From Telopea speciosissima (lineage: Eukaryota > Streptophyta > Magnoliopsida > Proteales > Proteaceae), in contig NC_057919.1 in NCBI RefSeq assembly GCF_018873765.1, positions 62,262,484 to 62,326,483 on the forward strand: DNA of 64,000 bases. The letters run 5' to 3'. Under the pieces are notes generated by a model. The model was not told where the DNA came from. It saw nothing but the letters and a program-made list of their open reading frames with translations, and did no database searches. Position 1 is the stretch's first letter. Each line of letters starts with the position of its first letter. A program made the position numbers and the translations under genes. Positions 18,377 through 64,000 of this stretch are shown in pieces.

Positions 18377-18385
18377 TTAATTTAA

Positions 18386-20016
18386 GGTAAATTTACACAT
18401 ACCTCCCTGAGGTTTAATGAAAGGATATTTTCAACCCCCAGGTTTGGAAAATTCTGCATACCCCCCTGATGTTTGCAAATGATAACCGATTGTCCATTCC
18501 GTCAGTTCATGATTAACACTATTAAAAAATAGACTTGAACTGACAAAATTGCCCTTACGCAAATTTTTTTAAAAAAAAAAAAAAAAAAACACCTGCAATT
18601 CATCTTTCCCAAACGATTTTGGGGAAGATGAGTTGTAGGTTTCAAAACCCTTTCAACCCTTATCGAAATTAGGAAAATTTTCAAATCCACTCCACCTGCA
18701 ACTCATCTTCCTAAGAGGAATCTCATCAGGAATGAAGTGAAGACATGAAAAAGAGAGAATTTAACAACTTCAAGATTGCCATGCTTGACACAAAAATCAA
18801 AACAGATAGAAGTAGGCCAATGTCAGATTAAGAAATAGAAGAAGCTTTCCAGAAATTAGAGATTAAGAAATAGAAGAATCTTTCTTCTTCTTCCTCGATG
18901 AAAGACCAGGCGGTAGCTCCAAACCTCGAAGAGAAGAACTCCATGCTATGAGGTTCACTCGAGCGAAATTCTGGACTCAAGTACTAAAACCCTTCTCTAT
19001 TGGAACCAGCCAACAAACTTGAGGTTCAACAACCTAAAAAATCAAGGGGTTAATTTGACAGGAAAGACTTGGCGGAAGATAAAGAAGAAACGGTTGCCAT
19101 TAGCTATAAGGTTTTCTAAGCAAAGGATTTGGGAAGGTCAATCGAAGCGATCGCAAAGATTTCAAAATTTGGAAAATCCAAAGCAAAGATTGCATTTTTC
19201 GTCCCTTTTCCTTTCAATTTGTGGGAGAAAGAGAACAGAAGAGAGCCCAAAAACCAAGGAAGACTTATCCCTTTTATGAAATTCGAGATTCCTGCAAATA
19301 TTGGAAAACCACTTAGCTAGTAAAAATTTACAATGTCAGATCTCCAGTGATGCTGCCCTTTTCGCCGGTTAAAGATCTCGGCTTTACAGTTTTTGGCTCA
19401 GATCTCTGCTTCCGAATGGAATGGGACTTATGGTTTGTATCGAAGGATACAAACAAACCGTTAAGGACCCACTTTTTGTGAAGGGAAAATATCTTCTCCC
19501 ACGGGATCTGACCCTCTGGAATGGAGAATGACATTTTTTTATTTTTGGTGAAGATGGAGAAAGATATTTCAGACAATGATCTTGAATCCAGGATAGAACG
19601 ACTGCTTAAATAGTAGGTGGCGATGGTGGAGCAGCAATTTGTTTAGGTTTTAGAAGAAGAAGGAGAAAAGGTAATGAAGGGGTGAAGAGATTCAATTCAT
19701 TTATTTAATTTTGGATGCTCCCAATTTTAATGGTTTTTTCCTTGAATTAGTGCATCGACAGAGCAAAACCTACATATCATCTTCCCCAAAATCGATTGGG
19801 GAAGATGAATTGCAAGTGTTTTTTTTTTCAAAAAAAATTTCTATAAGGGCAATTCCGTCAGTTCAAGTCTATTTTTTAACAGTGTTAGTCATGAACTGAC
19901 GGAATGGACCTATCTGTTACCATTTGCAAACCTCAGGGGGATATGCAGAATTTTCCAAACCTGGGGGTTGAAAATATCTTTTCATTAAACCTCAGGGGGG
20001 TATGTGTAAATTACCC
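18386..20016. mobile_element. Fold-back Mutator-like element (non-autonomous, 1.63 kb)
   Basis: Terminal inverted repeats of roughly 250 bp begin GGTAAATTTACACATACC (left) and end ggtatgtgtaaattaccc (right). TTAATTTAA flanks the element at 18377-18385 and 20017-20025, a 9 bp target duplication typical of MULEs. The 1 kb centre (about 18.72-19.73 kb) has short readings (19019-19279 plus) with no recognisable transposase. It could hold captured host sequence, which I cannot identify. Confidence 0.85.
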
Positions 20017-20025
20017 TTAATTTAA

Positions 20026-31600: not shown

Positions 31601-32938
31601 AGGAGAGCCCAAATGAAGAGAAATTAAGGACATATCTTTCATTCCTAATTGAGTACAAATTTATTGACACAAGAAAGATGGGATATTTTTGCTAAAGTAA
31701 ACCTTACTCTTATTTGAAATGATATGCTGACTACCATGATCTTAGCATATCATGAAAGAGTTGAAGAATGGCCTGGATAGATCTAATATCATCTATATTT
31801 GCATGACAGAACACAAAAGTGTCATCCGCAAATAACAAATGCAAAATTCAGGGGCTGACCTAGCAATTTAATGTCTTTGAACATGTTAAGGATCCTATAA
31901 TAGAACAAAAGACGGGGAAAAACCCTCAACCAAATTGAAGATGCAAGGATCGAGAGGACACACTTGTCTAATACCTCTAGAGTGCTCAAAGAAATTAAAA
32001 GTTGCACCCTTGAGTTTGATGGAATAAGAGACAGAGGAAAGAAGAACAATAACTAAATCACGCAATTTATCCAAAAATCCAAGAATTCAAAGAGAGCTCG
32101 AACATAATCCTATTTCAAACGATCAAATGCTTTTGACATATCGAACTTAATGGTTGTCCAACCCTGTTTCCTTTTGTAATGTCACGTGTAATGGATAATC
32201 TCATGAACAATGATGAAATTACTGAAATTTATCTTCCTTTAATAAAGGCAGGCTAGAAGGGGGAAATGCAACGTCCCATTAGCCCCTGAAGTCTTTTTGT
32301 AAGAAGTTTAGAAATGATTTTATAGGGAACTATACAAAGACTAATTGGATGGAAATCCTTCAAGGCAACAACCCTCTTTTTTTTTTGGAACAAAGCTATA
32401 AGAGTATGATTGGTTCCATGGGGAACGCTAAAGAAATAAAAAAAATTATGAACAAAAATGAGAACATCAAACTATACTAAATCCCAGTATTTGTAAAAAA
32501 AGAAAGCAAGGATACCATCATGTCTTAGAGCTTTATAGGCTCCAATACATAACCCAACATTCTTAACTTCCTCTATAGATGGTAAAGAAATTAACAAGTC
32601 ATTTTCTCATAAAGGAGATTATCAAGCAGAATAACGACGGCAACAGATGAGTGTCGTTGGAGTTGGAGGTAGAAAAAATAGAGATGAAATGCCAAGCAAA
32701 GACGTTAGCAAAAGAGGGGATAACATTAATAAAATTTTCATCAGCATTTTAATAAAATCAACCAATCTAACCCGTTAATTCATTTTAGTGATGGAATGGT
32801 AAAATCTGGTATTCCTATCCCCTCAATCACATATAAGTGTCGACTTTTGAAACCAAAATAATTCCTCAACTTCTAGTACCCAGTTGAAAGGTATTAGATA
32901 TCTTTGAAGTTTTGAACAGAACTTCAGGTGATGGGTCC
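28640..32938 (-). pseudogene. L1-like LINE, decayed, split by a solo LTR
   Basis: Fragments of a plant non-LTR retrotransposon ORF2 lie in order on minus. The junction before RT reads EELFWFQKS (about 32.85 kb). RT pieces include SIEEVKNVGLCIGAYKALRHD (about 32.55 kb) and the catalytic FADDTFVFC (about 31.83 kb). NPASLWSRILKAEYF (31.2 kb) and the zinc-finger-like region starting PKFKLFMWRLLKSGLTTK (30.7 kb) follow. An RNase H-like part continues across the solo LTR to VVLWTDCEALIEWMGE-type sequence (about 28.9 kb, with a stop at the W). Many stops and frameshifts make it dead. The 5' end is missing, and the Tat element abuts it at 32939. Confidence 0.8.
29012..30119 (-). mobile_element. Solo LTR (same family as 10.3 kb) inside the LINE, AATAT TSD
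   Basis: On minus it begins TGTAAGTACCG at 30119 and ends TATCTACA at 29012. AATAT flanks it at 29007-29011 and 30120-30124. It shares with the 10.3 kb copy the blocks 'gtcatgcttcata', 'gagtcgccacctagg' and 'tgttaggcacccatcttg'. It interrupts the LINE RNase H region. Confidence 0.88.
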
Positions 32939-33681
32939 TATTGTGGGTGAAAACCTCTGATGCTCGGTTCGCCCACGGATGAGCCTGTAAAAACCAAGCG
33001 ATGAGCACAAGAGAGCCGGTGTGGCTCCGGCCAAGGACTCTCCGACGCTCAAGTCAGGTCTCCAATGCAACAGCGTAACTACGTAGTGAAAGCAAGATGA
33101 GGAATGGTGCTCCATACCTGGGTATTTATAGAGTGAGGATGAGATGAGGCGGTTGGGAGAGTCCTCGTATGGTAGGAGTCCTTCTTTTGGAAGGCTCCCT
33201 CGAGTAGAGCGGAGTAGAGAGCTATTTTCGGGGTCGGGCTCTTATTAAGGTAAGAGTCCATGCAAAGTGTGATTTCGTACTGCGCTGGGATCGCGGCTCG
33301 ATCCTTATCCCATGATTCTCGGGATGTGCTGACGCGGCCCCGCGATCCCCGGTGGGGCGCTATAGTAGCCTTTGTGGAGGAGGGCTCGACCTCGGAGGTC
33401 GGCCTGGTCGGGCGGCCTTAACAGTCACCTCGGCCTGGGAGGTCGGCCCGAACGATTGGTCTTGGCAGTTAGCTCGGCCAGGGGTTTATGGTTGACCTGT
33501 GTGAGCTCGGCTTGAAGCTCGGCCTCAGCCACCGGCTAGCTTGCATGAATCTGGCTCTGTCAGGTGACTTATTGGAGATGGGGTCGGCCCGATTTCTTGC
33601 TCGGCTCAATTCGATTCTTGGACTGAGGTCAGGTCGGTAATGTGGCAGCCTTTGATAGGTGGGGTGTTTTATGCCTCATCA
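32939..33681 (-). repeat. 3' LTR of the Tat element
   Basis: 743 bp. In element orientation it starts TGATGAGGCAT at 33681 and ends CACAATA (the partner LTR ends CGCAACA), so the terminal CA has become TA. It carries 13 extra bases relative to the 5' LTR near 33390. TATAAATA on minus lies at 33123-33130. Confidence 0.95.
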
Positions 33682-36859: not shown

Positions 36860-37305
36860 TTGAGAGGTCGGCCAGGTCTATGAGGATCGGTCTTACGACT
36901 TGGTTGCCGACCTATGAGGGTCGGTCTTTGAGGTCGGTCAGGTCTATGAGGACCGATCTTATGATTTGGTTGCCGACCTATGAGGGCCAGTCTTTGAGGT
37001 CGGCCAGGTCTATGAGGACCGGTCTTACGACTTTACTGCCGACCTATGAGGGTCGGTCTTCGAGGTCGACCAGGTCTATGAGGACCGATCTTACGACTTG
37101 GTTGCCGACCTATGAGGGTTGGTCTTCGAGGTCAGCCAGGTCTATGAGGACCCGTCTTACGATTTTACTGCCGACCTATGAGGGCCAGTCTTTGAGGTCG
37201 GCTAGGTCTATGAGGACCGGTCTTATGACTAGGTTGCCAACCTATGAGGGTCGGTCTTCGAGGTCGGCCAGGTCTATGAGGACCGGTCTTACGACTTTGA
37301 TTTAG
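36860..37305. repeat. 66 bp tandem array, seven copies, in the Tat 3' region
   Basis: 'ggtctatgaggaccggtctt' recurs at 36875, 36941, 37007, 37073, 37139, 37205 and 37271, exactly 66 bases apart. Each unit is itself two related halves (ggtctatgaggaccggtctt and cctatgagggtcggtctt), implying an older unit of about 33 bp. The period is a multiple of three, so a 141-residue open frame runs through it on plus, but that is a by-product. It lies just downstream of the pol stop. Confidence 0.95.
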
Positions 37306-43486: not shown

Positions 43487-43509
43487 GTTCCCATAAACGG
43501 CACCAAATC
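43487..43509 (-). promoter_or_regulatory. Primer-binding site
   Basis: Directly after the 5' LTR the minus strand reads GATTTGGTGCCGTTTATGGG, the tRNA-complementary start typical of plant gypsy elements (TTTGGCGCCG-like, with C-to-T at the CpG). Which tRNA is used was not established. Confidence 0.8.
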
Positions 43510-44239
43510 TGTTGCGGGTGAAAACCTCTGATGCTCGGTTCGCCCACGGATGAGCCTGCAAAAACCAAGCGATGAGCACAAGAGAGCCTGTGTGGCTCTG
43601 GCCAAGGACTCTCCGACACTCAAGTCAGGTCTCCAATGCAACAGCGTAACTGCGTAGTGAAAGCAAGATGAGGAATGGTGCTCCATACCTGGGTATTTAT
43701 AGAGTGAGGATGAGATGAGGCGGTTGGGAGAGTCCTCGTATGGTAGGAGTCCTTCTTTTGGAAGGCTCCCTCGCGTAGAGCGGAGTAGAGAGCTATTTTC
43801 GGGGTCGGGCTCTTATTAAGGTAAGAGTCCATGTAAAGTGTGATTTCGTACTGCGCTGGGATCGCGGCTCGATCCTTATCCCGTGATTCTTGGGATGTGC
43901 TGACACGGCCCCGCGATCCCCGGTGGGGTGCTATGGTAGCCTCTGTGGAGGAGGGCTCGGCCTGGTCGGGCGGCCTTAACAGTCACCTCGGCCTGGGAGG
44001 TCGGCCCGAACAGTTGGTCTTGGCAGTCAGCTCGGCCAGGGGTTTATGGCTGACCTGTGTGAGCTCGGCTTGAAGCTCGACCTCAGCCACTGGCTAGCTT
44101 GCGCGAGTCTGGCTCTGTCAGGTGACTTATTGGAGATGGGGTCGGCCCGGTTTCCTGCTTGGCTCAATTCGGTTCTCGGACTGAGGTCAGGTCGGCAATG
44201 TGGCAGCCTCTGATTGGTGGGGTGTTTTATGCCTCATCA
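43510..44239 (-). repeat. 5' LTR of the Tat element
   Basis: 730 bp, from TGATGAGGCAT (44239) to CGCAACA (43510) on minus, with intact TG...CA ends. TATAAATA on minus at 43694-43701 is the likely core promoter for gag-pol transcription. Confidence 0.95.
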
Positions 44240-47943: not shown

Positions 47944-48298
47944 GAGCCGCACATAGAAACTTTTAGAATCGACACTCAAGCACGGTCGTGTGTGCACGAA
48001 ACCTTGTGCCATAAAAACTAGCAAAAAGATATATGAAATTTGGACTACTTATAGATCGGATGCAAGCCATTTAATTGAATTTTGATCCAACATATATGTA
48101 AAAATCCTCTTCTTATCACTTGAATGGGAGAAAATAAAGAAAAAGGAAGTGAAAGTGTGGATCATTGGGCCATTAGAGGAGTGCTGCTCTTTTATTTATT
48201 TTTTTCCTTTATCACTCACCAAACTTCTCTAATTACTAAACAAAAGATTTACACAAACCAAACTTCTCTAATTACTAAACAAAAGGTTTACACAAACT

Positions 48299-49040
48299 TG
48301 TTTGGGTTCCACGTGGAAGGCGGAAATAATAAAGCACACATCAAATGTAAGTAGCTAGATGTGGAGACTTATAGGTATTTTGACACCCTCTCCTTAACGG
48401 CTAACTTTTAAAGATGAGTTCTACTGAAGTTCCCTATAAGTGGTATTAGAGGCAGGGCACGACAACTCCAGCGTGCTCCCAAAGATGCATAAAAATCTTG
48501 CAGAGAAGATCTCAATCCCCACATATGCTCCCGTGTTGAGGGAAAGATTTTTAGCTTTTTATGCGAAAGCAATTATAAAGAAATTATCTGACATCATATA
48601 TACGGACTTAGGCACCCTCTCCTTAATGGCTAGTTTTTAAGGATGAATTCTACCTAAGTCCCAAACAAGTGGTATCAAAGCCAAGGTTGTGACCATGCCA
48701 ACATGGCAACCTGGTGTATCTCCAAAGATGAAGTTTAAAAATATCTTGGTTGCTCCCACTTGGATAAGAAGATTGTTGGGGTTCCACACGAAAGGTAAAG
48801 ATAATCTCACATTGTAACCTAAAGTAGAGACCTATAGGTTGTTGGACACCCTCTCTTTAACAGCTAGCCTTAGGCAATCCTTTAAAGATCTATGTTGCTC
48901 CTGCGTGGTGAGAGATATTGTTGGGGTTCAACATAGAAGATGAAAATAATAATCTCACATTGCATGTGAATAACCGATGTGAAGACTTATAAGGTACTTG
49001 GGCACCCTCTCCTTAACTGCTAGCCTTCGGTAATCCTTCA
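48299..49040 (+). repeat. Degenerate LTR-like units with tRNA-Met-type PBS motifs
   Basis: LTR-like starts 'tgttggggttccac' recur at about 48299, 48774 and 48919, and LTR-like ends 'ccctctccttaa...aagtccc' are followed by 'tggtattagagg' (48441) and 'tggtatcaaagcc' (48670). These match the initiator-tRNA primer site TGGTATCAGAGC of small LTR elements. The unit B counterpart is about 57.96-58.70 kb. No coding domain, so probably TRIM-like debris. Confidence 0.55.
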
Positions 49041-49044
49041 AGAT

Positions 49045-50278
49045 TGTTAGTGTATATGAGGGGTGTTAATGTATATGGTAGGACCGACTCAATATTAGTG
49101 TATATGGTTGTACATGTTTGGCACCGACTTTGACTTTTGTACAGAGTTATTTATTATCTTTTGGACTCAACTCTTGTATATATATCCTATACTATAATGA
49201 ATGAAATACGCAGAGTTTTACACATTCTAACATGGTATCAGAGCTATGGTTACCCTGTTCGTCCAGAGAGCTCCAGCCCCTCTCTGCCACTTCCACCTCC
49301 ACTGTTGTCTCAACCATTTTCTCTTTCCACATGTGGCAAGTGAGAGGTTCTGTTGGTGCAAAGGTGGTCGCGGCAAGTGAGAAGGTGAGTGTTGGATGCG
49401 GCAACTGAGAGATAGAATTTTTTTTTTTTAATAATTAAGGCTGATCTTAGACATGGGAAATAGGACATCAGCCAACGGCTTTGCACAAGCCATCGATGGT
49501 GAACTTTGGATAAGACAGGGCATCAGGCGGACTGCTGATGACAGCGGTGAAGATAGCAACGGAACAAAACCATGCAATAGCGGAGATCCGTGCAAAGGTG
49601 AATCCCTTTGCAGCGACAGACAACAATCAGGCGATCCCAAACAGGGATGGCAACAAGACAAACCCCAAGGCTGGAGCTCTATGGACTGACAATGAAGTCA
49701 ATCCCAAACAAAGATGACAGCAAGACCGCTCTATGGAAGCAGAGCTTTGACAACAAGATGATGGACAAACGGATCCCAAACACGGAATCCCAATCAAGAC
49801 AAATCTCATACATGGATTCTAAGGATAGACAGTCGGTGGACAGATGTCAAACAGGGATGGCATCAAGACAAGACAAATCCCAAATCGAGACTCAATGGAT
49901 AGTTGATGGCAAGACGATGGTAATAGACGACAGGTTGAAGGATGGCAACGTCAGGTGATGGTAATGGAAGTGCTTGGAGGACGAAACCGCATGTGGAAAG
50001 AGAAAATGGTTGAGATGACAGTGGAGGTGGAAGTGGTAGAGAGGGGTTGGAGATCTCTAGACGCAGAGGGTAACCATAGCTCTGATACCATGATAGAATG
50101 TGTAAAACTCTGCGTATTTCATTCATTGTAGTGTAGGGTATATATATACAATAGTTGAGTACAAGAGATAACAAATAACTTTATACAAAAGTCAAAGTCG
50201 GTGCCTAACATGTACAACCATATACACTAATATTGAGTTGGTCCTACCATATTAACACCCCTCATAGACACTAATACA
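49045..50278. mobile_element. Element with inverted LTRs and a PBS at both ends (1.23 kb)
   Basis: Left LTR 49045-49232 (TGTTAGTG...CTAACA) is followed by TGGTATCAGAGC (49233-49244). The right LTR, 50091-50278, is in the opposite orientation (on minus TGTATTAG...CTATCA), followed inward by the same PBS (50079-50090). Homology extends past each PBS, so about 290 bp at each end are inverted copies, roughly 90% identical by eye. AGAT flanks it at 49041-49044 and 50279-50282 (AAGAT if one terminal A is counted as target). Unit B has the uninterrupted site at 58703-58706. The central 650 bp shows no gag or pol. A normal LTR element has direct LTRs and one PBS. Confidence 0.82.
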
Positions 50279-51737
50279 AGATATTGCTCATATCTCTTCT
50301 ATATTCAATTTTCTTCCTAGGGATATTAATGGTATTGCTTACTCTTCAAACGAACTTGATCTTTGTATTAAGGATGCCTTGTGTTCCTCATGTCATTTTT
50401 CTAAATGAAAATATTCTTCAAATTCTACTCCTTGGCTACTTGATCCTTGCATTGGCTACTTAATATCTGCACTAGGATGCCTTATGTTTTTCATGTCATT
50501 CTTCTAAATGAAAATGCTCTTTACCGGGAAAAAAAAAACAATTGTTTGCCTCTAAGTTTATTCTACAAAACAATCCAACTCAATATCGTGATAGTCTTGG
50601 GAGTGGATGTTACATGTTAATATGAGTTAAATCTCTATAGATGATACCCAATGGCCAATGTCGAGTAGTTTGAATTTGTTTCATAAAGTAGGATTCCTAA
50701 TAAATCCTATTTAAATATCATTCGAACTAAAGTAGCTTTTGGATCACTTGGCAATGTGTATCAGTGCCCAAATTTAGTGGCTCTATTTTCATAATCCACA
50801 TGTCATTTTAATGTTTTTAGAAAATCACTTTGTTTCTCGAGATGAAGTATAAGAACCATTGAAAAGAAAAAGGTGAAATTAAAAGCCTTGCACATGGTGG
50901 GCATATGGTTGAGATTTAAATCACACACACATACGACATCTATAGAGAAACAACTTTAAGTTCTTAAGATCTATTTAGATATTTATTTGTCATATTCTTT
51001 AATCATAAGAAGTCGCAAACCATTTGAAATTAAAGTGGGAGGAATCCATATCTTCATCTATTACCTCTATAAAAAGAATGAATTTAATTTTCATTTTTTT
51101 TCCTTTGCCAAAACTCAACCCATTAATTTGACACATGTTTTCTAGACTCTAAAAAACCACATGATTAGAATTCTACTATTTTAATATTATTATTTTGTTG
51201 TTGTTAGTATACCAATAATATCGTTACTTCTAAAATATAATTTCCAACATATCTACTTCTATAAATTTATATCTAACATATTCTATATGCATTTACAATA
51301 AATAAAAAAAATGTATCCTATATCCCTAATCACAGTATTTCGAATATTTTTTTGCATATTTTATACATATCAAAATAACATTAGTCGTTCAAAATTTACC
51401 GCTTGTTACACAATGGTTGATTCAAAGTTTCTATATAATGGTTTTTTTTTTAGGGAGGGGGGTAAGGCCATAAGATATTCTGGTTGTTTATATATTCATT
51501 TGACCAAAATATTAGGGGATGATTCACCTATGTTATTAGGTTAATATTCATGAAAACTATGAAATGATACAATTCAATCATAGTTAGTTTAATTATTATT
51601 TTGTACCAAAAAAAAAACACAGCTTCTTATGACGTAATTGTGAAAAGATGTCGCGGTCAAGTTTGGTTTGTAGTTTGATAGAAAAAAAAGTATTCCCATA
51701 ATCAACATTAAGCCTTAAATAGGAAGACCAAAATAAA

Positions 51738-51900
51738 GGGATAAAGTTCTCTGCACTGGGGCGCAGGGTGCACCCAGACACATGGGATGAACGGAATGAC
51801 CGGTTGACCCCCCGAATGATCGAAATCTTGCTCTTTTCCCACCCCATGTGTCTGGGGGCAGTCTGCCCCAGATGTGCTCCCGGGCAGAGAACATCACCCC
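51738..51900. mobile_element. MULE-type MITE copy 3 (in unit A)
   Basis: 'gttctctgcactggggcgca' is inverted at the right (gggcagagaacatcacccc). Flanks are CAAAATAAA at 51729-51737 and a one-base-shorter version at 51901. It is the orthologue of copy 4, so it predates the A/B duplication. Confidence 0.8.
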
Positions 51901-52009
51901 CAAATAAAATACCACATAAAATTGAAAACTTTTTTGTAGAGAAAAAAAATAGATCTACGATTCTATTCTATATGAAAAAACATATAAATTCTATTAAATT
52001 TACCAATAT

Positions 52010-52960
52010 GCCATCAAATCTATGTTGAAGCACATTGATTAAAAAAAAATTGGAAAATATTGTATAGATAATTCGTCTCTATTTAATGGAAAAAAGATCA
52101 TCTAGAATTCTATATGGAAGCTACCTTTTCCTAAAAGTTGCTATAAGAGTAAGCCACCTAGAAAAGGCAAAGCTAGATTGAAGACACACCCATGAATATG
52201 AAATTCAACCTTTAAATATTCCTCTTCTATTTACCTTCTTTTATCATGTAGTGAAGCATATGTTTACCTTCTTTATCATGTAGTGCAGTAGTGCAACAAT
52301 GGATTCTGGTGAACTAACAGACTTCGAATATGCGTAACAGACAATGTTTGTGATTTTCTTTCTTTATAGTTTATATTTCTTTCTCACAAAAAAAAAATTT
52401 ATTCATAAAGTTCAAAAAAGTTTTTTTCACCTAGTAAAAATATATATTAAAGGACCGACAAAGGAGGCCGTGAGTATTAGGGTAATGGATATGCACTAAC
52501 ATCATTATGAGAGGAGGGTAGTTCCAACTTCACAGGGGATCAGTACTACTACCCCTAGATGGAGTGTACTTTTCTTTCACCCACAGTGGAGGAAAACTTT
52601 CTCTACTCAACATTGCCCCCACTGCTCCATCAATGAATATGGAGATTTTGTTTCCAAGACCTTGCTAGAACCAGTTGAGGCCTTATCGACCAAAGCAATT
52701 CTACATAGTCTAACCAAAACAAGTAGTTTTTTTTTATTCCTTTTCTCCTATTCTCCTTGACGACTCCTCCCCCATCTCACCCCCTTAGATGCAAGGGTTT
52801 ACTAATTCATAGAGGATATAAAATCCCAATTTCAGTTTTTTTTTTATTTTTTTTTATAGAATCCCCATTTTAAGTCCATAGCTTGATCTTTATTTCTTAA
52901 TGTGATAAATTGATGTGTAGAATATTAATGTCTCTGGTTTTATACTTCCTTTTGATATAT
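52010..52960. other. Intergenic, present only in unit A
   Basis: No gene recognised. Unit B has no obvious counterpart to this stretch. Confidence 0.4.
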
Positions 52961-53100
52961 AAAAGAGTATACCTCCTGCCACTGCAGGGTCTGGGAAGGA
53001 TCATAATATGCGCAGCCTTACCCCTCTACTGTCACAAAGAGACTGTTTTCATACTCGAACACGTGACCATTTGATCATAATAGAGTAACCTTCCAAGGCC
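52961..53100 (-). mobile_element. Au SINE fragment
   Basis: On plus, 'gcagggtctgggaaggatca', 'gcgcagccttacccc' and 'gagactgttttcatactcgaac' are the reverse complement of Au SINE segments. The 3' tail is degraded. Confidence 0.7.
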
Positions 53101-53559
53101 CACCCTCATTTCCTTAACAGGTAAGCTAAGTTTGGTGGAAATAACCCACCTCCACATGGCCAAACAACTATGCCATCAACAACTAGATATGTTATTACTT
53201 GGATTGTCCATGTTATGTCAAATTGGAAAAGGAACATTGCACTGCCCTTCTCTAGATTCCTTATAATCTTCTCACATAATAAATAGTGGGGGTCCCACAC
53301 TGATACACTCTTCTATCTTGACCATGTGGACCCCATATGGATGATATTATTTTCAAGTCCCTCATTGGTTAACGTGTAAATTCAGATTCTTACTTTTGTG
53401 ATTCTTTCTTTTAAGTATCCCCCCTAGTAAGAAACCGATTTATTGAGAAACATCTCATGAACAACTTATAGCTTGATGAACATAGATCTCATGGAGCCAT
53501 GGAGTGGAAATTGGCCATTCCGTCTCACACGAGATTGACAAGGCCTTCCTGGCTAGGGC

Positions 53560-54460
53560 TATCAACAATACCATTGCTAGTCCTAAAAATACAAGAAAAA
53601 GAACAGGCATGACAAGATGCAACTTTCCTAACTATATCATGGCATGATTGGAGTAATATGGAGATGAGTAGAATCAAGATTCGCCCTTCTTATTGAAGCT
53701 ATGACTTCTGAATTGTCAGATTCAACCTGATTTTGCTCCAATCCCATAGATTGGGCATGAAGTAAACCTGCCCAAACTGCCATGGCTTCACCAACTACGG
53801 TAGATGTAAAGAACATCTTTTCGGAAACAACTACAATCTATACTCCGAAACTATCTCTAAAAATGAAATCAATTCCCGCAATCGAGCTATCAGGCTGAAT
53901 AGAAGCATCACAATTTAGTTTAATAAAATCTGCATTCAGTGTTTACACTTTTGAGTGTTGTGGAGAGGGAACAACAGATGCAGCAGCTCCTTGTACCCTT
54001 CCCTCTTTCAATGCCTGCTGAAATTCAACAAAAGGTGCTTGGGTATATTGTATCACTTCCTCCAGAGTCCACTGTCTTCTATGGAAAACCTAATCATTGC
54101 GGGCTTTCCATAACCCCCAACATATAAAGGATGCAAGGGAGAATGATTTCCAAGCACCGGATTTGTTTGCTGCAAAAATATCATCTCAACCTTTAATCCA
54201 AAGATAAGTTTTAGGATCCGAGATGTCAGGAAGAGAATAGGAGAGTAAGCTACCAAACCAAATCGCCCTTGCAAAAGGGCATCCAAAAAAAAATGATCAA
54301 CGGATTTCATCTGTTCGTTACACTTCACACAAGACGTATCCAGATTAATGCATCTTCTAAGCAATGCCTCATTGGATGCCACTCCTTGTGCACAAACACA
54401 CCATGGAAAACTTCGAATTATTTGGCCAAATTCTTTTCTAAACCACATCATAAATCACAT
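53560..54460 (-). pseudogene. LINE 3' fragment: zinc-finger region and RNase H
   Basis: On minus, FPWCVCAQGVASNEALLRRC and CVKCNEQMKSVDHFF match the zf-RVT domain after LINE RT. Further along, the frame gives FIKLNCDASIQPDSS, VVGEAMAVWAGLLHAQS and VESDNSEVIASI, the RVT_3 RNase H with its first and later acidic positions. Stops interrupt both parts. It is found only in unit A, so it inserted after the duplication or was lost from B. Confidence 0.75.
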
Positions 54461-54984
54461 CTTAATTTTGATCAGAGAAATAATTATTAATGAGTTTGGT
54501 TACCTCACTAATGTTACAATGTGTGTGGTTGGGAAAGTGGGTTAGAGTTTGTAGAAATACCTTTCTTGAGTGCTAATAAGCTATAAGCTTTCACAATCCA
54601 AACCCACCTATTTCTTCTTCCCACCTTTGTATGGACACAAAGTATAAAGCATACACAAGAAGAAAAAAGAAAGGAAATCTATTAAAAATTAAGAAGACTG
54701 TTTACATTGTTCATATCAACACAAAGCTTTTTTGTTTCAAAAACTAGTGCTCCAAACTGATTTATGTTACATTCAGTTTAAACATCTAAGGGTTCAATCA
54801 ATGGAGGAAAACATGCAAGATCTCCCTTCTTCCTAAATGCTCCACAGTAGACAGAGGAAGAAGGAGATGGAGGAAGTTTACCAAACGATTAAGCAATTAT
54901 ATGGAAAGATATAGATAAGGATCAAACTATAAGGTTCAAATTACATACAGAGAAAGAAAGAGGTTCAGAAAACAAATGGAAAAA

Positions 54985-55866
54985 TCAGAAATCAAAACCA
55001 CCAGCATCGTCATAACCACCATCATACGCAGCGTCAGAAACCATATCCCCTATCAAAAGCCCACCAAGCGCTCCTCCCAGCAACCCAGCTCCCAATCCCA
55101 TCCCAAACTTATTCTTCTTCGGCTGTTGTTGCTGCTGCTGCTGCATCGGCGGGTACCCGTAACCCGGCGCCGGTGGATAACCATACCCTGGTGGAGGCGG
55201 TGGGTTTTGATAAACCCCCTGTGGTGGATACCCATACCCTGCCACCGGCTGCGGCGGATATGGATACGCATTTTGTGACGGCGGAGGATAACCAGATGCA
55301 CCTTGCGGAGGATAACCAGAAGCCCCATACGGAGGATAACCAGAAGCCCCCGGCGGAGGATACCCACCGCTACTCGTCCCTGAGGACGCAGGGTAGGCGG
55401 TGACGGGTTCATCTCCCTTCGATACGGTCGGTGCCGGAACAGTAATTTTGTCGCCAAACTTGTAAGAGAAATTCAATTGGCCTTTGGGCTTACCAGAAGA
55501 TGTCCTGACCTGATAGCTAACGAATTGGGCGGATTTTTCATCCCCTGCGTTAGCGTTATCGAGGAGCTCCTTGACAGGGACGTGTACTACGCCGATATCT
55601 TTATCGGAACCGATACTGCGATCACAACGGAGTTGAAAGATGAGAACAAGACCGCCCTTTAGAGCCGCGTCTTCGTCGATATTGAATTTCATCTGGAAAT
55701 TCCATTTAGGATTCGTTCCACCGTCCTTGTCGATCGGAGTTTTCTGCTTCGTCAGGTTATCGCCGCTGAGGTTAGCAACGAGGTAGACGTCCATCTTGCC
55801 GAAGATATTGACATCTTTGATATCTTTTGCAGCGATCACGGTGATTTCTAATGGTCGGTATTCCAT
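54985..55866 (-). CDS. SRC2-like C2-domain protein, copy A (intact, single exon)
   Basis: Homologue of plant SRC2 ('soybean gene regulated by cold 2') proteins, membrane-associated C2 proteins linked in Arabidopsis to ER/vacuole trafficking and calcium-dependent NADPH-oxidase activation. The start is ATG at 55866 (MEYRPLEITVIAAKDI) and the product is 293 aa in one exon. The C2 domain spans about residues 1-140 (GKMDVYLVANLSG, KTPIDKDGGTNPKWN, GVVHVPVKELLD). Then come repeated SGYPP/GYGYPP units (about 160-255), a poly-Gln run and the conserved hydrophobic Gly-rich tail (GLGAGLLGGALGGLLIGDMVSD). TATAAAT on minus lies at 55932-55938, about 70 bases upstream. The paralogue at 63.1 kb has lost this tail. 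The exact symbol is not assigned. Confidence 0.93.
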   Translation of the reverse strand: MEYRPLEITVIAAKDIKDVNIFGKMDVYLVANLSGDNLTKQKTPIDKDGGTNPKWNFQMKFNIDEDAALKGGLVLIFQLRCDRSIGSDKDIGVVHVPVKELLDNANAGDEKSAQFVSYQVRTSSGKPKGQLNFSYKFGDKITVPAPTVSKGDEPVTAYPASSGTSSGGYPPPGASGYPPYGASGYPPQGASGYPPPSQNAYPYPPQPVAGYGYPPQGVYQNPPPPPGYGYPPAPGYGYPPMQQQQQQQPKKNKFGMGLGAGLLGGALGGLLIGDMVSDAAYDGGYDDAGGFDF

Positions 55867-55931
55867 TTTTCTGATTCTGAAACAGAGAAAGAAAAACAAA
55901 CAATACGAGAAGAACTCGGTGACGATGGGAG

Positions 55932-55938
55932 ATTTATA
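55932..55938 (-). promoter_or_regulatory. TATA box of SRC2-like copy A
   Basis: TATAAAT on minus, 66-72 bases before the ATG. Copy B has TATAAAA at the matching place. Confidence 0.6.
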
Positions 55939-56024
55939 GGGAGAGAAAGGGTTTCAGTTTAAAATTTAAAGGAGAGAGAATAGAAACTGGGAAATTTCCT
56001 ATGTTATCTAATGTTTATGAGTTG

Positions 56025-57756: not shown

Positions 57757-58971
57757 ACTTAGAGATTGGATGCAAGCCATTTAATTGAATTTTAATCCAA
57801 CATATGTGTAAAAATCCTCTCTTTGTCACTAGAGAAGTAGAATGGCATAAAATAAAGAAAAAGGAGTGTGGGTCACAAGGCCATTAGAGTGTTGCTTCTC
57901 TTTCTTTCTTTTTTTTCACTCACCAAACTTCTCTAATTACTAAAAGAGACTTTACACAAACTTGTTGGGGTTCCATGTGAAAGGCGGAAAGAATAAATCA
58001 CACATTGTATCTATGTAACTCAATGACGAGACTTATAGGTACTTCGACACCCTCTCCTTAAGGGCTAATTATTAAAAATAAGTTCTACTTAAGTCCCCAA
58101 TAAGTGGTACTAGAGTTAGGGCATGACAACTCCGACGTGCCTCCAATGATGGATTAATCTCTCATAGAATATCTCAATTCCCACATATGCTCCCAGGTCA
58201 AGGGAGAGATTTTTAGCTTTCCACGCGAAAGCAATTATAAGATAATTATCTGATATCAGATATAAGGATTTAGGTACTCTCTCCTTAATAGCTAGCTTTT
58301 AAGGGTGATTTCTATCTAAGTCCCAAACAAGTGGTATTAGAGCCAAGGCTATGGTTGGGCCAGCATGGCAATTCGACGTATCTCCGAAGATGAAGTAGAA
58401 GAAGATCTTGGTTTCTCCCATATGGATAAGGAGATTGTTGTTGTTCCACGTGAAAGGTTGAAATAATAATCTCACATCGTAACATGAAGTGGAGACTTAT
58501 AGGTACTTGGACACACTCTCCTTAATGGCTAGCCTTAGGCAATCCTCAAAGATCCCTATTGCTCCTACGTGGAGGGGGATATTGTTGGGATTCTATGTGA
58601 AAGATGAAAATAATAATTTTACATCGGATGTGAATAGCCGATGTAGAGACTTATAAGTATTTGGGTACCCTCTCCTTAACAGCTAGCCTTGGTAATCCTT
58701 CAAGATATTGCGCATATCTCTTATGTATTCAATTTTCTTCAAAGGGAGGTTAATTGTATGGCTTACTCTTCTAAATGAACTTGATCTTTGTATTAAGGAT
58801 GCCTTTTGTTCCTCATGTCATTTTTTCAAAATATGCTTCAAACTCTATTCCTTGGCTACTTGATCTTTGTATTGGCTACTTAATCTCCGTATTAAGGATC
58901 TCTTGTGTTTCTCATGTCATTCTTCTAAATGAAAATGTTCTTTACAACAACAACAACAACAAAAAAAAAAA

Positions 58972-59304
58972 GGCAATCCACTACTATGTGCCTATGAAGT
59001 TTATACTATCAAGCAGTCCAACTCAATGTTCATGATAGTCTTGAGAATGGATGTCACATGTTAATATGAGTTAAATCTCTATAGATGATACCCAAGGCCA
59101 AGAAGTGTGAATTTGTTTCATAAAATAGGGTTCCAAATAAATCCTATTTAAAATCTAAATTTGTGAGGTGCTGCTATACCTCTCGCACTCAAGCTTGGTG
59201 AGGTTTATCACAGGGAAGGCCTCGAATGGGCACAATGGGGAGGGGAAGCCCGAGACGGAGAAGAAGTGGAAAAAAAGAAAGCTAAAACAAGGGTAGAGAA
59301 AGAC

Positions 59305-59335
<31 letters not shown>

Positions 59336-59757
59336 AGTCAATAATTACCGGTTTTCCTGTGATAACCGGTAAAGAAACAAAATGATGTTATAGGGTATTT
59401 TAGGAAGTTTAGTTATATTTTCTTGTTGAACGGGAAAAGAACTAACTAATCTGGGGATTAGGTAAATCTTTTCAAAATCTAAATTTATGGATGTAAAACA
59501 AATTTAAATTATAATTATCTTGTAATTCTTTTTTTAATCTCGTAGATCTAAGAAATTTCCCCCCCAAAAAAAAGGGCAATCAACTACTATGTGCCTATGA
59601 AGTTTATACTATAAAGCAATCCAACTCAATGTTCATGATAGTCTTGGGAGTGGACACCGCATGTTAATATGAGTTAAATCTCTATAGATGATACCCAATG
59701 CCGAGTAGTTTGAATTTGTTTCATAAAATAGGGTTCCAAATAAATCCTATTTAAAAA
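58972..59757. repeat. Direct duplication of about 180 bp around a 420 bp spacer
   Basis: 'ggcaatccactactatgtgc' at 58972 recurs as 'ggcaatcaactactatgtgc' at 59575, each running to 'aaataaatcctattt' (59150 and 59752). Unit A has only one copy (about 50.55-50.72 kb). The spacer holds a (GA)n run at 59293-59320. Confidence 0.8.
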
Positions 59758-60753
59758 AACATTCAAATTAAAGTAGCTTTTGAATCACTTGACAATGTCT
59801 AACAGTGCCCAAATTTAGTGGCTCTATCCATATCATCATCACATGTAAATTTAATGTTTTTAGAAAATCACTTTTTTTCTCAAGATGAAGTATAAGAACC
59901 ATTGAAAAGAAAAGGTGAAAAAAGCCTTGCATATGGTGGGCATATGGCTAAGATTTAAATCACACACAAACGACATCTACAGAAAAACAACTTTAAGTTC
60001 TCGATCAAGATCTATCCAGATATTTATTTCTCATATTCTAATTATAAGAAGCGGCAAACCATTTGAAATTAAAGTGGAATCCATATCTTCATCTATTACT
60101 TCTATAAATAAAATTACCTTAAAGTTCCTTAATTTTCATTTTGTCCCTTTTCCAAAACTCAACCCATTAAGTTGACATATGTTTTGTGGGCTCTAAAAAC
60201 CACATGATTAAAATCCTACTATTTTAATATTATTATTTTGTTATTATTATACTAAGAATATCGTTACTTCTAAACTATAATATCCAACAAACCCACTTCT
60301 ATAACTCTATATCATAGTATCATACCTACCATATTCAATATGCCTAATCACTACCTTGTATTTAGAATGTTTTTAGTCCTACAAAATCTACCATTTGTGA
60401 CACAATGGTTGATTTGAAGTTCCCATATAATGGGGGTTTTTTTTTTTTTTTTTTTTTGGCGGGAGGGGGAGGGGGTTAAGTCTGTAAGATATATACTGGT
60501 TGTTTATATATTCATTTCACCAAAATATTATGGGATGATTCCACTATGTTATTAGGTTAATATTTATGAAAACTATGAAAAGATACAATTCTATCATAGT
60601 TAGTTTGATTATTATTTTGTACTAAAGAAACAATTTCTAATGATGTAATTGTGGAAAGATGTCGTTTAGAAAGACATATTTGATTTTTAGTTTGATAGAA
60701 AAAAAGTATTCACATGATCAACATTAAGCCTTAATTAGTAATATCAAAATAAA

Positions 60754-60923
60754 GGGATAAAGTTCTCTACATTGGGGGCACAGGGTGCACCCAAACACAT
60801 TGGGGTGGGCGAAATGACCAACCCGCCCCCTTGAATGACCGAAATCTCGTCCCTGTCCCACCCCATATATGTTTCTGGGCACAACCGACCCCAGATGTGC
60901 TCCCAGGCAAAGAACATCACCCC
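60754..60923. mobile_element. MULE-type MITE copy 4 with 9 bp TSD
   Basis: Perfect CAAAATAAA at 60745-60753 and 60924-60932. It is the same element as copy 3 in unit A, with the better-preserved target duplication. Confidence 0.85.
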
Positions 60924-61084
60924 CAAAATAAAATACCACATAAAAATTGAAAAGCATATTTTGTAGAGGGAAAAATAGCTCTACAATTCCATTCTATATA
61001 AAAAAAGCACATGAATTCTATTAAAAAATTATGAAAATTACTGAAAAGTGCTAATGAACTGGCATCCCATTGACTCGGAAAAAT

Positions 61085-61155
61085 TGGATCATAATGTACG
61101 TAGCCTTACACTTGCTTTCATAGAGAGGCTATTTCCAAACTCGAACCTGTGACAA
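61085..61155 (-). mobile_element. Au SINE fragment
   Basis: 'gtacgtagccttacac' and 'gagaggctatttccaaactcgaacc' on plus are reverse-complement Au SINE. It is truncated at both ends. Confidence 0.6.
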
Positions 61156-61569
61156 AAAAAAACACAGAATGAAAGAATGCCTAGCTTGAGGTAGAGAGAG
61201 AGAGAGAGAGCGTGTGTGTGTGGGTGTGAGCTTATTAACCAAAAGAGAACCTATTGTATGTACCGGAATGACGATGAAACATGACGATGGACTCCATCAC
61301 TATTAATGTGGAATATTTTCCATCATTGGTATCAATTCTCCAATGGAGATTAAATAGAGATTACATGTGAGAGAATCATAATCAAATTATACAAGGTAAG
61401 AGAGGATAAAGGATACATAAAATATTGAGTTTACATCCAAGGGAGAATACGAATTAGAGTTTCTAAAAGAGGCTCAATCCATATCACATATGAGAAGCGA
61501 TATGGAGAGTCCAAGTTTGGTAAGAAATCTATCACATAATACACCCCCTCAAGGTGGAGAGTCAGGCAA

Positions 61570-62620
61570 CCGAATCTTCAGCTTGTCATGTAACAAATTG
61601 AGAACAAACAGTACCAAGGGCCTTAGTAAATGTGTCAGCGAGAACTTGCAATTGCTTCTTGGCCACACGATCACGGAAAAAATAAAAATCGTGATCTCCA
61701 CGTGCTTGGTGCAAGCATGGAAAACGGGTTCGTAGAAAGGTAGGCGGTGTCAATGTTATCACACCACAGTATAGGAGAACTATGTAGAGGGTAACCCAAT
61801 TCACCAAATAACGATTCCAACCAGATGAGTTCAGCCGAAGCATCAGCTAAGACCTTGTACTTAACCTCTGTAGAAGAGTGTGCCATGGTTTCTAATTGTG
61901 GGATGTCCAAGATATAAGATTCGAACGAAGAAAAATTGCAAAGCTGCCGGTGGACTTACGGTCGAAACCATCACCTGACCAATCAGCATCAGAAAAGGGT
62001 TGAAGAGAATGGGAAATCGACCTTTCAAGAAGTAAACCATGAGTGTGGGTACTCTTTAAGTAACGAATAATCAGTTTGACAAGTTGCCAATGATCAAGAG
62101 TCAGGGCATGCATGAACTAACAGGCACGGTTACCACAAATGCAACATCTGGATGGATCAGTGTGATATACTGTAGAGCACTCACAATCGATCGATACTCA
62201 ATGGGTTCAGGCATTGGCTCACCCCCTGAAATCTAGGACTTATGAGGGGTAGCTATGGGAGTTTGCACCGATTTACAATCAACCATCTCAGTGCATCGCA
62301 ATAAATATGATATATAGCGAGATTGGGAGAGTAAGAGTCCCTTGGAACGAGGGATGGCCTCAACGCCCAAAAAGAAATGAAGTGCACCAAGATCTTTAAT
62401 AAAAAATTCACCAGATAACTACCGATGGAGAGACAACACCATAAAAGGGCACTACCAATGACAAGGATATCATCAACATATATATCAAGATGTAACTAAC
62501 ATCGATACCAACACGTCGAATGAAAAGACATATGTCAGCCTTAGACCCATGAAAGCCTAGCTGAAGAAGAAAGTCCGAAAATCTATGAAACCAAGCCTTG
62601 GACCCCTGTTTGAGGCACTA
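61570..62620 (-). pseudogene. Ty1/copia fragment: end of RT and RNase H
   Basis: On minus, in order: HRFSDFLLQLGFHGSKADIC and a shifted LIYMLMISL (copia YVDD region), then TLDHWQLVKLIIRYLKSTHT, FSDADWSGDGFDRKSTGSF, AHSSTEVKYKVLADASAELI and ILWCDNIDTAYLSTNPFS. This is the classic copia C-terminus. Stops and frame changes make it dead, and no LTRs were seen around it. It is found only in unit B. Confidence 0.85.
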
Positions 62621-62820
62621 GAGAGAACAATGGAGGAAAAAATGTAAGATCTCCCTTCTTCCTAAATGCTCCATAATAGACAGAGAAAGGAGAAGGTGGA
62701 GGAAGTTTACCAAGCGACTAAGCAATTATATGGACAGATATAGATACAGAACAAACTATAAGGTTCAAAGCACATACAGAGAAGAGAAGGAAAGAGTTTC
62801 AGAATGATAGAGTTTGAAAT

Positions 62821-63020
62821 TTGTTTGAAATTTGAATTTTCTCCTCTGCACCTTTTTGGTGTTTTGAGGGTTTGTATGTATAATCAATCTTTACAAGAAG
62901 ATAATGATGTTACACGTAAAGATTAAGAGATAAACAAAAGAGAGCTATTAGCTACAACAGATAGCTGTCGGTTGAGAACTCTTTTTTATGAGCAGTGATT
63001 TTGTACCCGTTGAGTTGTTA
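62821..63020. other. Interval downstream of copy B
   Basis: About 200 bp that separates the copy B reading frame from the 3' flank shared with copy A (62.63-62.80 kb). It looks inserted relative to unit A. No gene is recognised. Confidence 0.4.
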
Positions 63021-63121
63021 CGCTTTCAGAAATCACCGTAACCACCCAATCCCATTCCAAACTTATTCTTCTTCGATGTCGATGGTTGCTGCTTCTGCGT
63101 TAGCGGTTACCCGTAACCCTA

Positions 63122-63712
63122 TTACGGCGCTGGTTGATAACAACCATACCCTGGTGGAGACGGTGGATGTTGGTAAACCCCCTGCAGCGGATATGGATAA
63201 TAACCACCGCCAGACCAAGGTGGCGGGTGCGCCACACTTTTCCCGGCGGTGACAGGTTCATCTCCCTTCGATACGGTCGATGCCGGGGCTGTAATTTTGT
63301 CGGCGAACTTGTATGAGAAATTCAATTGGCCTTTGGGCTTACCAGAAGATGTCTTGACCTGATAACTAATGAATTGGGCGGATTTGCCATTCCCTGGATT
63401 ATGGAGGAGGTCCTCGACGGGGACGTATACTACGCCGATATCTTTATTGAAGCCGAATCTGCGATTACAACGGAGTTGAAAGATGAGGACAAGACCGGTC
63501 TTTAGAGCCGCGGCTTCGTCGATATTGAATTTCATCCGGAAATTCCATCTAGGGTTCTTCCCACCTTTCTTGTCGATCGGGGTTTTCTGTTTCTTTTTCA
63601 GGGATTCGCCGCTAAGGGTAACAACGACGTAGACGTCCATCTTGCGGAAGAAATTGACATTTTTTATATCTTTTGCAGCGATCACGGTGAGTTCTAATGG
63701 TCGGTCTTCCAT
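63122..63712 (-). CDS. SRC2-like C2-domain protein, copy B (C-terminally truncated)
   Basis: Paralogue of the 55 kb gene. The start is ATG at 63712 (MEDRPLELTVIAAKDI) and the product is 196 aa. The C2 domain is complete, but several acidic or neutral residues of copy A are basic here (RKMDVYVV, LKKKQKTPIDKKGGKNPRWN, CNRRFGFNKD). The GYPP-repeat region is mostly missing: VTAGKS is followed directly by a shortened Pro/Tyr segment. Translation stops at TAA 63122, where six extra bases (TAATAG) interrupt the frame. The same frame downstream still shows KKNKFGMGLGGYGDF to a stop at 63026, a remnant of the lost tail. TATAAAA lies at 63788-63794. Either a truncated, possibly expressed protein or an early pseudogene. 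Confidence 0.75.
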   Translation of the reverse strand: MEDRPLELTVIAAKDIKNVNFFRKMDVYVVVTLSGESLKKKQKTPIDKKGGKNPRWNFRMKFNIDEAAALKTGLVLIFQLRCNRRFGFNKDIGVVYVPVEDLLHNPGNGKSAQFISYQVKTSSGKPKGQLNFSYKFADKITAPASTVSKGDEPVTAGKSVAHPPPWSGGGYYPYPLQGVYQHPPSPPGYGCYQPAP

Positions 63713-63787
63713 TTTTCTGAATCTGAGAATGTGAGAGAGAAAGGGGGAAAGACAAGCAATACAAGAAGAATTCGGTAACGATGGAAG

Positions 63788-63794
63788 TTTTATA
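63788..63794 (-). promoter_or_regulatory. TATA box of SRC2-like copy B
   Basis: TATAAAA on minus, about 80 bases before the ATG, at the position matching copy A. Confidence 0.55.
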
Positions 63795-64000
63795 GGAGAG
63801 AGAGACAGAGAAAAGACTCTGGAAATTTCCTGTGCTGACGAAACCGAGTTATCTATATTTGGAATGATTATTATCAAAACAAAAAATTTATAATCTTCCA
63901 TTTACCCCCAAAAACAAAAAATATAGTAATGAACCTTCGGTATTTCATTCGTAAACGTTAAACGTTACAAGACCGTGTAAAATCAGTGTTGGTAGTTACG

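Follow-up and report, generated by a model that had tools for sequence, protein, structure and literature searches.

Facing long terminal repeats at a Telopea speciosissima locus look like one aberrant insertion of a palindromic retrotransposon cDNA

At one locus in the genome of Telopea speciosissima two long terminal repeats (LTRs) face each other, each followed inward by its own primer binding site (PBS), which raises the question of whether this unit belongs to a class of retroelements multiplying with inverted LTRs or records a single accident. We analysed the window, that is the whole stretch of 64,000 nucleotides in which the unit lies, and searched the whole 823-Mb assembly for relatives, the counts from these genome searches being lower bounds. 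The unit looks like one aberrant insertion, a rare copying accident, and not like a member of a propagating palindromic class.

The two arms (about 290 bp each, with 650 bp between them) align in inverted orientation, 49047-49336 against 50274-49987, with 91% identity over 292 columns (BLAST, E 8e-109), a match that is far beyond chance. From outside to inside each arm carries a 19-bp extension, an LTR, the PBS TGGTATCAGAGC and a leader of about 90 bp, while the core between the arms contains diverged repeats about 70 bp apart; the features are located in Table 1. The PBS, which in the left arm we take to be of the tRNA-iMet type, lies at the inner LTR edge of both arms and has a single occurrence on either strand of the window (49233 and 50079). 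The initial annotation, made from the letters alone, had described inverted LTRs, a PBS inward of each of them and homology running past the PBS into arms and core of the above sizes, and on all these points it was borne out; its LTR length of 188 bp and LTR start at 49045 were instead to be corrected, the LTRs measuring 169 bp (left, 49064-49232) and 167 bp (right, 50091-50257), with the LTR start of the family (TGTTAATG) falling at 49064 in the left arm.

Table 1. Position of the inverted unit, its parts and the corresponding empty site, in coordinates of the window.
Feature	Position	Strand	Remarks
Left target-site duplication	49039..49044	.	CAAGAT (6-bp reading)
Left outer extension	49045..49063	+	19 bp, PPT-like GAGGGG at end; first 14 bases resemble U3 motifs
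Left LTR	49064..49232	+	169 bp, TGTTAATG...TTCTAACA
Left primer binding site	49233..49244	+	TGGTATCAGAGC
Left arm internal 5' leader	49245..49336	+	Homology to the right arm stops at about 49333-49336
Left arm/core junction	49330..49344	.	Novel; at most about 3 bp of microhomology
Core	49337..49986	-	Interior of ordinary elements; continues the right arm colinearly
Right arm internal 5' leader	49987..50078	-	
Right primer binding site	50079..50090	-	
Right LTR	50091..50257	-	167 bp
Right outer extension	50258..50276	-	19 bp; 2 differences from the left extension
Right target-site duplication	50277..50282	.	CAAGAT
Empty site, paralogous segment B	58701..58706	.	Single CAAGAT

A segmental duplication is present in the window, with segments A and B (48047-55946 and 57757-63803) about 80-89% alike in pieces and the unit in A only. 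Where paralog B reads CCTTCAAGATATTG, segment A has CAAGAT, the unit and again CAAGAT. The flanks had been annotated as AGAT/AAGAT; the repeat is indeed found on both sides and can be extended, being readable as 6 bp (CAAGAT), 5 bp (AAGAT) or 4 bp (AGAT), and with the 6-bp reading both outer extensions are exactly 19 bp long. The clean empty site claimed for B was confirmed, with a single CAAGAT and no insert, and entry as one unit is still the best reading. In fact, with a single pair of repeats around the unit and no unit in B, neither a chromosomal inversion nor two separate insertions account for it. The gap-free duplication of 6 bp is a slight oddity beside the clean 5 bp (CAAAT) at the ordinary copy C14 described below. 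Pieces of the left flank (48640-49044) are widespread in the genome, with at least 64 matches among the best 40 of 434 candidates, and therefore the unit landed beside other repetitive DNA.

The search with the left arm gave at least 21 matches from 20 candidates. Eleven were strong (86-100% identity, E < 1e-48) and correspond to the two arms of the unit plus nine LTRs at seven other places, the remaining ten being weak or short; with the right arm at least 16 matches were obtained, and the strong places were identical. The seven places are probably six insertions: three of them (C6, C1 and C14) have two LTRs, all direct, and three (C2, C11 and C7) have one. No second inverted-LTR unit was found in the assembly, and 0/7 of the other LTR places are inverted, these counts too being lower bounds. 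The complete direct-LTR copies, C6 and C1, span about 2.0 and 2.4 kb, respectively. The two places on C14, L020 and L021 (C14:31883 and C14:61563), lie on the same strand 29.7 kb apart, the former carrying a 5' LTR with PBS and the latter internal sequence plus a 3' LTR; since CAAAT stands on both outer sides, they probably belong to a single direct-LTR element that was interrupted. Within the fetched stretches C2 and C11 show a 5' LTR only, and C7 an LTR fragment only. Short opposite-strand LTR matches revealed by sensitive BLAST on the loci L021 and L023 (25-53 columns, E 0.007-0.06) are taken as chance.

In these copies the ordinary LTR begins TGTTAATG, directly after host DNA or, in the 3' LTRs, after a polypurine tract (PPT) such as TTGAGTTTGAGGGGG; variant starts were observed in the 5' LTR of C6 (TATTAATG) and in the 3' LTR of C14 (TGTTAATA). 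The direct LTRs have TG...CA ends (pairs of C1, C6 and C14), with the exception of the C6 5' LTR, which starts with TA and ends with AATA. The PBS stands beside the 5' LTR in C6, C1 and C11, with one change in C14 and three in C2, and the PPT directly precedes the 3' LTR in C6, C1 and C14; before the C7 fragment there is a different purine-rich stretch. TTGAGTTTGA is present in 8/8 of the PPT regions compared, which were chosen for matching that region. The flanks of the ordinary copies are CAAAT on both sides in C14, GAGAT/AAGAT in C1 (4/5) and CATAT/ATTAT in C6 (3/5). None of the 7 frames picked from the 25 listed in C6 and C1 matched a Pfam coding domain at E 0.1. The source family is TRIM-like and presumably non-autonomous, of about 2.0-2.4 kb, with direct LTRs, one PBS and no coding match found. 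It resembles TRIM or small LARD elements in its short LTRs, tRNA-type PBS, PPT and the same lack of a coding match, but it is only TRIM-like because its complete copies exceed the TRIM size, given as under 1,000 bp in a passage of PMC4717578. Related sequences were also noticed: L032 (C4:65382500-65388000) has the 3' internal end and PPT of the family with an LTR whose similarity over the 3' half is only about 73%, and is either a mosaic or a sister family; the PPT region is common to four more loci, L034-L037 (three on C3, one on C8); and L025 (C3:67786500-67793000) is a related element in which two direct repeats (about 160 bp, 87% alike) enclose a core-like match of 68%.

The core gave at least 9 matches in the assembly. 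In C6, C1, C11 and C2 a 5' LTR, PBS and leader are followed by core-like sequence, arranged and oriented as in the right arm plus core of the unit, and this part of the unit matches C6 with 82% identity over 673 columns. Moreover, the C14 copy matches the core to near its left end (84%, 409 columns) and continues with about 1 kb of other internal sequence, then the PPT and the 3' LTR. Core and arms are not separate entities, the former being the internal region of direct-LTR elements. Judged from these alignments, the unit is the first 0.9 kb or so of an ordinary element, without its 3' half, plus some 290 bp from the 5' end repeated in inverted orientation. The left arm is joined inside internal, non-LTR sequence, and the internal sequence belonging to each arm is unequal, about 0.1 kb against about 0.75 kb. 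Compared by eye with C14, the only relative covering the spot, the leader and the C14 continuation have no more than about 3 bp (ATG) in common as microhomology at the junction, and no relative compared spans the novel joint. Self-integration (autointegration) is defined by an LTR terminus joined to internal sequence. In its simple form it does not fit here, because there is no LTR end at the internal junction: both inner LTR edges run into the PBS, with the junction reached only about 100 bp deeper.

The outer ends of the unit are peculiar. The terminal 19 bp (49045-49063 and 50258-50276) lie beyond the LTR as delimited in the other copies compared and, going outward from the U3 start, both arms enter GAGGGG and then a 14-base stretch resembling U3 motifs. 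The initial annotation had taken both outer ends as U3 termini, which is inexact, as both run 19 bp past U3 into this PPT-like tract. The 19-bp extension as a whole was found in none of the compared relatives (0/7 other LTR places). A 17-base pattern of the extension, allowing up to one mismatch, occurs at 4 places in the assembly, namely the two arms (no mismatch) and two others (one mismatch); these latter are at chance level, because the backward control of the pattern gave 7 places. The left extension matches the U3 motif at 13/14 positions, and shuffles of the left LTR that keep base content only, with both arm versions tried, equalled this in 3/20,000 trials per arm version. Two readings suit the extension, one combining a PPT with a U3 motif, the other making it a tandemly duplicated copy of the opening 19 bp of U3. 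Since the odd end is common to both arms and present in none of the relatives, it suggests that the arms derive from one molecule or one source element.

The divergence between the arms (7.4% over 285 columns) was compared with that of the LTR pairs of C1 (4.3%) and C6 (12.9%) and with that of the A/B flanks (17.2% on the left, 11.4% on the right). Because the value of the arms lies between those of the two LTR pairs and below those of the flanks, it is consistent with an order in which the A/B duplication preceded the insertion and the arms were identical when inserted. For 7 of the 21 differences between the arms both states recur in other copies, for 13 one of the states is private, and 1 is uninformative; in the ordinary LTR pairs, both states are found elsewhere for 3/7 differences in C1 and 6/22 in C6. 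The arms, thus, behave as if identical at insertion, because their pattern of private differences matches that of ordinary LTR pairs. The tree of the arms has low supports and the arms are not sisters in it, and the slowly changed 3' LTR of C1 differs from them by 5.6% and 5.1% over the LTR, against 6.7% for arm versus arm. The test for different family members as templates of the two arms was neutral: the low-support tree and the ordinary pattern of private differences gave them no support, and nothing that would refute them.

We therefore favour, with a probability of about 0.72, one insertion of a cDNA that was palindromic, of half length and derived from an ordinary LTR retrotransposon family of low copy number, whichever of two routes produced it. 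A palindromic cDNA had been proposed from the start, and this part of the proposal stands as the best reading, while the suggested origin by self-integration failed at the junction. As for the route, the balance tips slightly towards a strand switch of the reverse transcriptase or a snap-back, well ahead of an end-joining of two partial cDNAs, with the remainder going to other routes; retroviral snap-back synthesis is a known process. A plus strand running through LTR, PBS, leader and core would lose its template about 0.9 kb in and would pair by a few bases with a plus strand, either itself or its twin in the same particle; once re-primed, it would copy leader, PBS and LTR back out to the end, and the product, with two like LTR-side ends, would insert with a duplication of 4-6 bp. 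We infer from the duplication only that integrase carried out the insertion. A more detailed version, in which an aberrant plus-strand start (PPT-like tract plus second U3 motif) was followed by fold-back at about 0.9 kb and integrase joined two identical U3-side ends, can be offered only tentatively and is itself doubtful. Several observations speak against parts of this account. The unit is a single example of an event without replicate; the family does not normally end in these 19 bp and the duplication, in its gap-free reading, is of 6 bp against a clean 5 bp in C14, so that a role of integrase is only presumed; a snap-back hairpin would have one double-stranded end and a 650-nt loop, and a further step would be needed to give two free ends; and the arms are not sisters in the low-support tree, the C1 3' LTR being nearer to each of them than they are to each other, which is compatible with two different templates.

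The other route within the broad explanation by a palindromic cDNA is that two partial cDNAs of the family, both intact at the LTR end and broken at the internal one, were fused head to head by the end-joining of the cell, the product then inserting by way of its two LTR ends. The position of the junction in internal sequence with little homology, the unequal internal lengths and a tree compatible with two templates all agree with such a joining; nevertheless, we consider it rather unlikely, as the rare 19-bp extension at both ends is not expected of independent molecules unless the source element carried it. Less probable still is that an ordinary direct-LTR copy had its 3' half replaced later by an inverted 5' end, through fork template switching or gene conversion. 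Rearrangement is the commoner source of complex LTR elements, with 20 recombinant cases against 2 by template switching in about 7 Mb of Triticeae sequence (PMC1950507), but here it would have had to end precisely where the target duplication begins, leaving a 19-bp tail that matches the other end, and there is no trace of inverted host flank.

A distinct palindromic family multiplying with inverted LTRs, which the initial annotation had put forward as a palindromic TRIM family, is very improbable. The clean insertion and the symmetric ends would suit it, and the search covered a single plant assembly; against it, 0/7 of the other LTR places are inverted, the 17-base pattern occurs exactly only twice in the assembly, both times in the unit itself, and the search for full-length inverted-LTR copies with the same core returned none, with lower-bound counts. 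Only direct or single LTRs elsewhere, which the annotation had held to indicate a one-off rearrangement, is what we found, whereas the two separate insertions or the inversion breakpoint that it associated with this outcome are not supported. Hardly to be entertained is a DNA transposon of foldback or MULE type with LTR sequence captured in its terminal inverted repeats, for, although the inverted repeats are long and the ends depart from plain U3 termini, the arms are LTR, PBS and leader save for the outer 19 bp and colinear with a retroelement family, the termini are shared by no other copy (up to one mismatch), and the 4-6 bp repeat is unlike the target duplications of MULE (9 bp) or hAT (8 bp) elements. 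DIRS-like elements use a tyrosine recombinase and make no target duplication. This identity was rejected, a short duplication flanking the unit and the ordinary copies lacking a coding match.

The kind of event is already known. The legend of Fig. 2 in PMC4717578 presents a maize array of Zma-SMART, an inverted TA-TRIM, with two inverted TRIMs inside one target duplication. Like our unit, it consists of small LTR units in inverted order within one target duplication, there 5 bp long (CTTCA), and the unit shares the feature of inverted units in one duplication, a likeness drawn from the description and not from aligned sequences; yet that legend shows two inverted TRIMs, whereas the unit has two unequal 5' halves with an internal joint and no 3' half. 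The section of that paper describing the array gives no mechanism. In PMC1950507, complex plant LTR insertions inside one target duplication are explained by abnormal template switching during reverse transcription. The Angela, Squiq and Opie complexes reported there resemble the unit as complex LTR insertions with one target duplication, but have a third, internal LTR shared by two complete internal regions, whereas the unit, with just two LTRs in inverted orientation, lacks any complete internal region. These two sources, the former by its legend, were the only close precedents for inverted or palindromic LTR elements noticed in a non-exhaustive literature search, in which no palindrome was met that joins two 5' halves and has an aberrant end common to both sides; such a palindrome is a variant of the known event.

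The unit would represent a fossil copying error, a palindromic retrotransposon cDNA preserved in the chromosome of a plant between the copies of a short target duplication. If two like ends were used, integration of a plant copia-type cDNA would not need a pair of U3 and U5 ends. For annotation, the locus advises caution, as terminal inverted repeats enclosing a PBS may be neither a DNA transposon nor a new class. The window holds another inverted-repeat unit (18377-18642 and 19766-20025), with arms of 267 columns, 88% alike, around a core of about 1.1 kb; no PBS was seen in it, and by eye it resembles a MULE-like DNA transposon with long TIRs. Two copies of a sequence of about 740 bp stand in direct orientation about 10.6 kb apart (32938-33681 and 43509-44239; 94% alike) and may be the LTRs of a large element, and at 36864-37299 a unit of about 66 bp is repeated in tandem.
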